This document shows, in pieces, positions 9,932 to 11,251 of a stretch of DNA of 27,151 bases. Within the stretch, counting starts at the first letter, position 1. Each line of letters begins with the position of its first letter. Source of the stretch: a virus. Made by a program: the position numbers and the translations under genes. The stretch lies in IMG/VR virus record IMGVR_UViG_3300036857_000343, positions 1 to 27,151 of that record, one strand, 5' to 3'. The notes under the pieces are model-generated. The model had not been told where the DNA came from. It did not search any database and saw only the letters and a program-made list of their open reading frames with translations.

Positions 9932-10281
9932 GGCTCCTCCGTCTCTGACGCCTGTATGGCCACCTCGTCCAGCCGGCCGGCGTCCTGGCATAACCGGACG
10001 AGTTCGTAGAAATCGAGGACGGCTACGGGTCTCGAACCGAAATGCAGGCCGATTACGAGGAGCCATGGCCGCCCATCGGCTTTCGCGTTTTTTCTCGCCT
10101 GGTCCACCCAGGCGGCTCGGAGTTGGAGGCGTTTTGTCCGTTTCACTTCTACCGCAAACGGGGCCGTCCCATCGTCATCGGTGCCGCGGGCGTAGCCGCC
10201 TGGGCCGATGCTGGGCCGCCGCTGGGCGCCGAGGGCCCTACAGACTCGCCGCTCGAGGTCTTTCCAGGCGGAGGAGCTCAT
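9928..10281 (-). CDS. PD-(D/E)XK nuclease, Holliday junction resolvase-like
   Basis: A 117-residue protein with the core of Hjc-like and related restriction-fold nucleases: a helical start with Glu10 (AWKDLERRVCRALGAQRRPS), an acidic turn GTDDDG (D35-D37), the catalytic strand PFAVEVKRTK with E45 and K47, then helix LRAAWVDQARKNAKADG with Gln61 and strand WLLVIGL. Such enzymes resolve branched DNA from recombination or replication. It lies in the replication/recombination operon with RecB- and RecT-like genes and starts in an ATGA overlap with the upstream gene. Confidence 0.75.
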   Translation of the reverse strand: MSSSAWKDLERRVCRALGAQRRPSIGPGGYARGTDDDGTAPFAVEVKRTKRLQLRAAWVDQARKNAKADGRPWLLVIGLHFGSRPVAVLDFYELVRLCQDAGRLDEVAIQASETEEP

Positions 10282-10760
10282 ACGCGGGCCCTCCCCCGCT
10301 CCTCTGCCTCGAGCTCGGTCTGGACGCCTCGAGGGCGTTCCTGGCGCCAGAGCTCGGCCATCCGCTCCCGGAGCTCGAGCTCCTCCGCCCAGGGTTTCAG
10401 GATTGGCCCGCGTTCGCCTCCGTCCTCGAATAGCTCGGCGAGGACTTGGCTCTCCCTCTCGAAATGGACGCCAGTGGAGCGTATCCACCTCTCGGCGCCC
10501 GCTACGGCTCGGTCTCGGTCTCGGCTGTCTCTCACGGTTACGTCCTGGCCGGCTCGTTCGGCTCGAGTGGCGAGGATGGCCCAGGGGCTCCGGATGAGGC
10601 CACGACGGTAATCGGCGGCCACGGTTTCGAGCTCGGCGACGATGGCGGCGGGCCGTTCCCGAAACGCCTGGAGGAGCCGCTCCTCGAGGGCGGCGCCTGG
10701 AGTGCCGTCGAATAGCTCTACCGCTCGGTCGTAGGTCTCGGTCCAGACGTATTCGATCAT
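10278..10760 (-). CDS. Unassigned early protein, possible replication partner
   Basis: A 160-residue, mostly helical, charged protein starting MIEYVWTETYDRAVELFDGT. A conserved-looking central patch reads YRRGLIRSPWAILATRAERA (about residues 51-70); the C-terminus is Glu/Arg-rich. It starts in an ATGA overlap with the putative initiator gene immediately upstream. A two-gene initiator/loader arrangement like lambda O and P is possible, but I do not see a motif that proves it, and no Walker box is present. Confidence 0.55.
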   Translation of the reverse strand: MIEYVWTETYDRAVELFDGTPGAALEERLLQAFRERPAAIVAELETVAADYRRGLIRSPWAILATRAERAGQDVTVRDSRDRDRAVAGAERWIRSTGVHFERESQVLAELFEDGGERGPILKPWAEELELRERMAELWRQERPRGVQTELEAEERGRARV

Positions 10761-11251
10761 AGGTCCTTCACCTCGGCTCGTTTCAGAATGTCGGCGAGGG
10801 CCTCGGGCCCTCCATTTTCGTTTTCCACAATTCCCGCCCGCCCTCCCTCGTAGTTAGCTACGGGTGGGGGGGTAGGGGTTAAGGTTTTCTCTACTTCTGT
10901 CTCTGCGCTAGCAGGTTCGCTAGCAGGGTGATAGCCGTCCGCTAGCGTCGGGCTAGCAACAATGTCTATGAAACCCGCATGGACAAGGGCCTCGAGGGAA
11001 TCTTTACGGACTTTCTGCCCGAGTCTCCGAGAGAGTTTCGCGGGATCGCTACGGACTTTCTGCCGGCTCTTTGCGTAGAGGTTCCGGAGGTCTCTGAGGA
11101 GCCCTCTCTGGGCGAATGAGAGCTCCAGAAACTCCTCTCGGTCTAGCTGGTCTAGGTGGTCTTTCACCCATACCGGCGCCCGTTTGAGAGGGTCGTAATG
11201 CTGGAATTTCCGCCACCCAGGGACGGAGATATAGCCGTCCTCGAGGTTCAC
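10757..11251 (-). CDS. Putative replication initiator carrying the origin candidate
   Basis: A 164-residue protein from a GTG start at 11251 (GTGA overlap with the RecT-like gene), beginning MNLEDGYISVPGWRKFQHYD. The N-terminal two thirds looks like a helical DNA-binding domain (VKDHLDQLDREEFLELSFAQ, then two QKVR repeats), as in phage initiation or DnaD-like proteins. The second half is low-complexity. Within the gene sit four GCTAGC palindromes, a 15-bp direct repeat and a DnaA-box match, so the gene probably contains the origin its product acts on, as in lambdoid phages. A longer in-frame ATG start at 11302 exists, but the overlap favours GTG. Confidence 0.62.
   Translation of the reverse strand: MNLEDGYISVPGWRKFQHYDPLKRAPVWVKDHLDQLDREEFLELSFAQRGLLRDLRNLYAKSRQKVRSDPAKLSRRLGQKVRKDSLEALVHAGFIDIVASPTLADGYHPASEPASAETEVEKTLTPTPPPVANYEGGRAGIVENENGGPEALADILKRAEVKDL
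10821..10829 (+). promoter_or_regulatory. DnaA-box match TTTTCCACA
   Basis: TTTTCCACA fits the relaxed DnaA-box consensus TT(A/T)TNCACA, one base from TTATCCACA. It lies about 80 bp from the GCTAGC cluster, with a T-rich stretch (10880-10905) in between. A single box can occur by chance; its value is in the company it keeps. Confidence 0.4.
10907..10957. repeat. Four phased GCTAGC palindromes (iterons)
   Basis: GCTAGC occurs at 10907-10912, 10919-10924, 10941-10946 and 10952-10957. Offsets of 12, 22 and 11 bp put all copies on about the same face of the helix. Reading through the window I noticed no other GCTAGC, and different copies fall in different codon registers, so coding constraint does not explain them. 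Confidence 0.7.
11005..11064. repeat. 15-bp direct repeat pair
   Basis: TACGGACTTTCTGCC at 11005-11019 recurs exactly at 11050-11064, 45 bp apart. Both copies encode the same QKVR segment of the initiator. It may be a protein-level repeat, an additional initiator site, or both. Confidence 0.6.

Follow-up and report, generated by a model that had tools for sequence, protein, structure and literature searches.

Origins of replication that lie within the gene of their own initiator have been described in several systems. In lambda and the lambdoid phages the origin is found in the middle of gene O and contains four iterons, or six in some lambdoid phages (PMC7466680). In the RepA_N plasmid pSK41 four Rep boxes occupy the centre of rep and code there for a linker that joins the DNA-binding domain at the N-terminus to the C-terminal domain (PMC5703833). 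Two phages, SPP1 (oriL, lying in gene 38) and 80alpha (ORF20), have the origin in their replisome organizer gene, binding of the direct repeats by the protein having been shown for SPP1 (PMC6316719, PMC5499656). The protein described here shares its WH family with gp04 of Iodobacter phage PhiPLPE (phrog_26426), whose record names it simply a replication protein or DnaD-like loader and marks no origin.

The window analysed here is the whole of IMG/VR virus record IMGVR_UViG_3300036857_000343 (27,151 bp), a genome that is rich in GC and siphophage-like and includes genes for a serine integrase, an exonuclease and a RecT-like protein. A sequence-only reading of it had proposed a minus-strand gene for a 164-residue protein, and this gene is indeed present, running from 11251 to 10757 with a GTG start that overlaps, as GTGA, the stop codon of the RecT-like gene upstream; its own end overlaps the start of a downstream minus-strand gene (ATGA; 10278..10760, 160 aa, no significant family match). 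The 164-residue protein is a putative replication initiator, given its sole PHROG match (phrog_26426, ‘replication protein’, E 2.9e-4, the profile lying over the WH domain and assigning the protein to that family), the matches of relatives to the same group (3e-16 to 7e-19 for three, 3.9e-6 for a fourth) and the WH domain predicted by AlphaFold2. Searched against Pfam it gave nothing above the cut-off, Phage_rep_O included, and membership of the lambda O family was rejected, the iterons differing also.

AlphaFold2 and the alignments place an N-terminal WH DNA-binding domain, with the motif FQHY..(D)R.P.W[IV]K, at 10958..11251 on the minus strand. Predicted confidence (pLDDT) is 80-90 for residues 1-30, 93-98 for the blocks spanning residues 31-100 and 55-71 after residue 100, so that the WH domain is predicted with confidence to about residue 98 and what follows is a low-confidence linker. 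The iterons described below begin immediately after the last WH strand (DIV), exactly at the end of the domain, the first GCTAGC coding for the two residues that follow this strand. Taken with those relatives that have a C-terminal domain, the model thus puts the repeats in a segment predicted to code for a linker between the DNA-binding and C-terminal domains, much as the central boxes of pSK41 rep code for a linker. That system is a plasmid one with another protein family, however, and identity with a RepA_N plasmid initiator was considered and rejected: a fold search of the PDB gave nothing significant (the pSK41 Rep-type structures 4pql and 5kbj appeared at E 6-9), and no solved structure, the pSK41 Rep N-terminal domain included, was significantly matched by sequence. 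Among viral models, the fold search matched PhiPLPE gp04 (E 5.6e-5).

On the gene strand the array reads GCTAGC-N5-GCTAGC-N5-GCTATC-N5-GCTAGC-N6-GCTAGC, followed by GCAGAGACAGAAGTAGAGAAAA, and comprises five units at offsets of 0, 11, 22 (degenerate), 33 and 45 bp. Iteron 1 (10952..10957, minus strand, as are all the units) keeps its aligned position in L002, L008, L014 and many other relatives, and the 11-bp pair that it forms with iteron 2 (10941..10946) is kept across the family. Iteron 3 (10930..10935) is the degenerate GCTATC, or GATAGC on the plus strand, and several relatives (L062, L066, L137, L141) likewise have GCTATC or some other degenerate copy in third place; iteron 4 (10919..10924) follows after a further 11 bp, and iteron 5 (10907..10912) after 12 bp, as a CCTGCTAGCGAA/CCTGCTAGCGCA tandem. 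Upstream of the array, at 10968..10980 on the same strand, there is a ATGCGGGTTTCAT block with GCG-GGT codons, which is preserved nearly letter for letter in the window's own clade.

The sequence-only reading had listed four GCTAGC palindromes, starting at 10907, 10919, 10941 and 10952. These positions are exact, and the four are the only copies in the window, but the degenerate fifth copy, which fills the apparent 22-bp gap, had been overlooked. The count of 4 for the whole window is below the mean of 7.87 found in dinucleotide shuffles, so that the word is not a common one, yet all four copies fall within 51 bp, and four or more arose in only 2 of 20,000 synonymous shuffles of the gene. It had also been suggested that the copies lie in different codon registers, and this holds in part, since one reads CTA-GCG but the other three share GCT-AGC (Ala-Ser); only two registers are in fact permitted for GCTAGC, because the third would read TAG.

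Relatives were gathered by protein, neighbourhood and alignment searches, although no relatives were found with query P0002 among viral contigs or with P0001 among genome contigs; at least 447 were confirmed as family members and about 140 were examined, many of them recovered solely through protein similarity and sharing about 25-45% identity with the window protein. Nearly all have the same layout, with 11-bp-phased iterons past the WH domain, usually GCTAGC, and then a GA-rich tract. The expectation that the array would be conserved among relatives is thus upheld, and in remote ones its position is unchanged, whichever reading frame is used; even those found by protein alone retain GCTAGC-N5-GCTAGC where the WH domain ends. 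For instance, L002 (found by protein search, 42% identical) has ATTGTTGCTAGCAAGCCGCTAGCC at the matching place, L137 has GCTAGCAAGTCGCTAGCAGGTTGCTATCAAGTTGCTAGCCTAGAGACAGAGACAG and PhiPLPE has GATAGCGAGATGCTAGCAGAGTGCTTGCAAGATGCTTGCCTAGAGAAGAGAGAG. In PhiPLPE the 11-bp units are GATAGC/GCTAGC/GCTTGC/GCTTGC with a GA tract, and all 5 GCTAGC of its 47-kb genome are in the gp04 gene. A clear array is missing in L103, L110 and L030, which tells against the reading as an origin; in L110 the C-terminal part past the WH domain has given way to an HNH-endonuclease-like stretch, with loss of the iteron array, and a similar HNH-like stretch of DNA is seen in L102.

Earlier codon-shuffle statistics took in genes that had been found through a 17-mer from the array itself and were consequently biased; those given here come from 70 non-redundant genes found by protein only. 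These contain 148 copies of GCTAGC, where codon shuffles yield 26.4 +/- 4.3. Of the 68 distances between adjacent copies that do not exceed 60 bp, 37 are 11 bp, the most frequent value. Self-similarity at a lag of 11 bp has z = 18, compared with 6.3 or less at lags of 9, 10, 12 and 13. The copies are divided about equally between the two stop-free frames (78 and 70), which implies that selection acts on the DNA. GCTAGC occurs at 3.45 per kb inside family genes and at 0.092 per kb outside them, a 38-fold difference. The 17-mer (GCTAGCAAGCCGCTAGC) has 31 exact matches in 2.9 million viral contigs, 28 of them in family genes and one more in a truncated copy; of its 8 exact matches in cellular genomes two are in family genes (Labrenzia sp. 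and a Saccharibacteria MAG), the other six being apparently due to chance. When three phased GCTAGC were sought as a pattern in DNA only, a family gene lay on the sense strand in 68 of 79 loci and on the antisense strand in none. Most of these loci have the array inside the WH-coding part, showing that some groups possess a second array there. In most of the loci, as in PhiPLPE (L241, 977-1014) and Cr-LKS3 (L242, 35007-35044), this second cluster has offsets of 0, 11 and 32 and lies in the helix xASxxLAxxxWLLAS.

Directly past the array, at 10885..10905 on the minus strand, is a purine-rich tract, CAGAGACAGAAGTAGAGAAAA (also given as AGAGACAGAAGTAGAG), whose counterpart in relatives is AGAGACAGAGACAGAG; the T-rich stretch pointed out earlier is present, and reads as the complement of this conserved tract. 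Its purine content exceeds that of codon shuffles in a gene set that includes the 17-mer-found genes and is to that extent biased. The peptide encoded by the GA tract differs from phage to phage (ETETE, RDRDR or QRQRE). In L166 and L170 the GA tract past the WH domain is on the opposite strand, the iterons being followed by CTCTCCTCTCC, which suggests that what matters is the asymmetry of the strands and not the peptide encoded. We propose that the tract is a region of unwinding or helicase entry. It is not AT-rich in GC-rich members of the family, and a point against an origin is that purines here, in a GC-rich genome, stand in for the A+T richness usual in an unwinding element.

Some further flanking elements may be mentioned. 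Past the GA tract the window has a C-rich tract, CCCCTACCCCCCC on the gene strand (10858-10880), which is also found in L020, L106, L129 and L137, a weak signal (8, as against 3.1 +/- 1.4 in codon shuffles). A 16-bp hairpin, CTCGCG-CGCT-CGCGAG with at most one mismatch, is absent from the window but occurs in 12 family genes from two distant clades (L008, L002, L018, L016, L017, L044, L054, L033, L074, L079, L081 and L083); where inspected it lies between the iterons and the GA tract, and it uses more than one reading frame. The lambda origin likewise has an inverted repeat. Two other elements that had been assigned to the origin did not withstand scrutiny. The supposed DnaA box at 10821 (TTTTCCACA) exists, but at chance level, the window having 2 one-mismatch matches to TTATCCACA where 1.04 are expected, and no DnaA box is kept at the corresponding place in relatives; a DnaA-dependent origin was accordingly rejected. 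The 15-bp direct repeat (11005, 11050) is in full a 23-bp repeat at 87% with a spacing of 45 bp, or 15 codons, and is a local duplication of coding sequence, since it encodes a repeated QKVR that relatives lack.

Where the N-terminal motif of the protein changes, the iteron changes with it in all copies, the phase remaining about 11-12 bp. Each of six FQHF proteins (L036, L169, L174, L181, Xanthomonas phage PBR31 and Limnohabitans phage DC33) has GATATC, whereas among classified FQHY proteins there are 95 with GCTAGC and none with GATATC. TGTACA accompanies four PKW proteins (L092, L096, L162, L164), which have FQQY/YQAF...PKW or, in one case, FQHY...PKW; TCTAGA accompanies two YQHY..PKW proteins, and L003 has GCCAGC/GCTGGC. 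PKW alone does not set the iteron, as L054 and L066 combine it with GCTAGC. Some of this association is explained by relatedness, the tree requiring 15 changes for all classes as against 21.7 in shuffles; at least 2 are required for GATATC, and it may be that no more than one or two evolutionary events lie behind the FQHF/GATATC group. Covariation of this kind is what self-binding of the initiator would predict.

Taken together, the concentration of GCTAGC, the conserved array, its covariation with the protein motif, the match to a replication family and the helicase, loader or ATP-binding genes downstream in three named phages support the proposal of origin iterons inside an initiator gene, and the stretch at about 10885-10957 is probably the core of a phage replication origin lying within the gene of its own initiator; we put the probability of this at roughly 0.82. 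That the protein binds its own gene, that the purine tract unwinds and that replication starts at the array are inferred from sequence. Several molecules of the WH initiator would bind the GCTAGC iterons, whose 11-bp spacing, one helical turn, would bring them to one face of the DNA in a nucleoprotein complex; this would open the adjacent tract of purine/pyrimidine asymmetry, where the helicase would be loaded by the C-terminal part of the initiator or by a coupled downstream protein. The array itself would occupy the stretch coding for a disordered linker past the WH domain. Known phage initiator domains (Phg_2220_C, O-like, phrog_270) make up the C-termini of relatives, and a DnaC-type, DnaB/helicase or ATP-binding gene is directly downstream in PhiPLPE, Cr-LKS3 and phiV208. 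The window initiator has no recognisable helicase-loading C-terminus; the 160-aa downstream gene may supply this function, which relatives have in the C-terminal domain or the next gene. As for a switch of GC skew near 10.9 kb, which had also been anticipated, there is none, skew being uninformative there; of the five complete named phages, four have their minimum of detrended GC skew at a distance of 0.6-2.3 kb from the array, which is suggestive, although divergent transcription close by is a confounding factor.

Covariation would equally be expected of any site to which a protein binds in its own gene, and phased palindromes bound by a WH protein are typical of regulators too. As the array also lies within an operon, one might suppose it to be an operator at which the WH protein or some other repressor controls its own operon, replication starting elsewhere. 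We consider this unlikely, however: the array is not at a promoter but hundreds of bases into the coding region, conservation extends to the flanking purine tract, and the family matches replication initiators, with helicase or loader genes next in the named phages.

The iterons' change in step with the N-terminal motif, and their 11-bp phase, are in turn properties that a recombination joint has no need of. The suggestion that the array is a conserved stretch for swapping the C-terminal halves of initiators would fit the sharp divergence of these domains (Phg_2220_C, O-like, phrog_270) just past it, but is very improbable, and any exchange there might simply be a side effect. Least credible of all is that the array itself is a by-product of coding, whether for a repeated Ala-Ser peptide or through tandem duplication in the linker: three of the four copies do code for Ala-Ser, and there is a 12-bp tandem of two units, but codon shuffles of the same proteins fail to yield the array, copies occur in each of the permitted frames, one and the same DNA stretch codes for different peptides, and proteins with little identity are encoded where the DNA is fully identical. 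The 70-gene shuffles and the densities of GCTAGC inside and outside family genes refute it.

Returning to the reading as an origin, the likeness to lambda lies in phased repeats inside the initiator gene, iterons beside a compositionally biased tract, an N-terminal DNA-binding domain and, in several relatives, O-like C-termini. It differs in that lambda has iterons of about 18 bp built on ATCCCTCAAAACGAGGGA and an AT-rich flank, whereas here there is a 6-bp palindrome every 11 bp and a purine-rich flank. SPP1 and 80alpha share the in-gene origin, but with another protein family and no GCTAGC array described, and SPP1 has an AT-rich unwinding element. The layout is thus a known one, while for the iteron class and the protein family no earlier description was found in the open-access literature, where the motif FQHYKDR was not found and strings of the GCTAGCAAGC type gave no phage-origin paper among the matches listed. 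It is an even bet whether these loci form a widespread class of origin in tailed phages, apparently undescribed, with 11-bp GCTAGC-type iterons and a GA tract in the linker of FQHY-family initiators (in some groups in the WH domain also), extending over phages of Pseudomonadota, one cyanobacterium and the window's clade of GC-rich soil phages, in which the motif (FQHY/FQHF, KDRxPPW/KDRxPKW) would set the palindrome read (GCTAGC, GATATC, TGTACA, TCTAGA) as a specificity code. The signature marks the likely origin, and names the putative initiator, in hundreds of phages where the gene is now a ‘hypothetical protein’; paired changes of motif and palindrome make initiator-origin recognition directly testable by swaps; and one stretch of DNA is under two constraints, as a putative binding array and as a protein linker. 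Arrays of 11-bp-phased GCTAGC are also seen in non-family genes of L258 (minus strand, about 10.7-10.9 kb, with many units) and L292 (around 4404), the proteins of which have no Pfam match but an initiator-like layout, and if these are true the iteron would be shared beyond the family.
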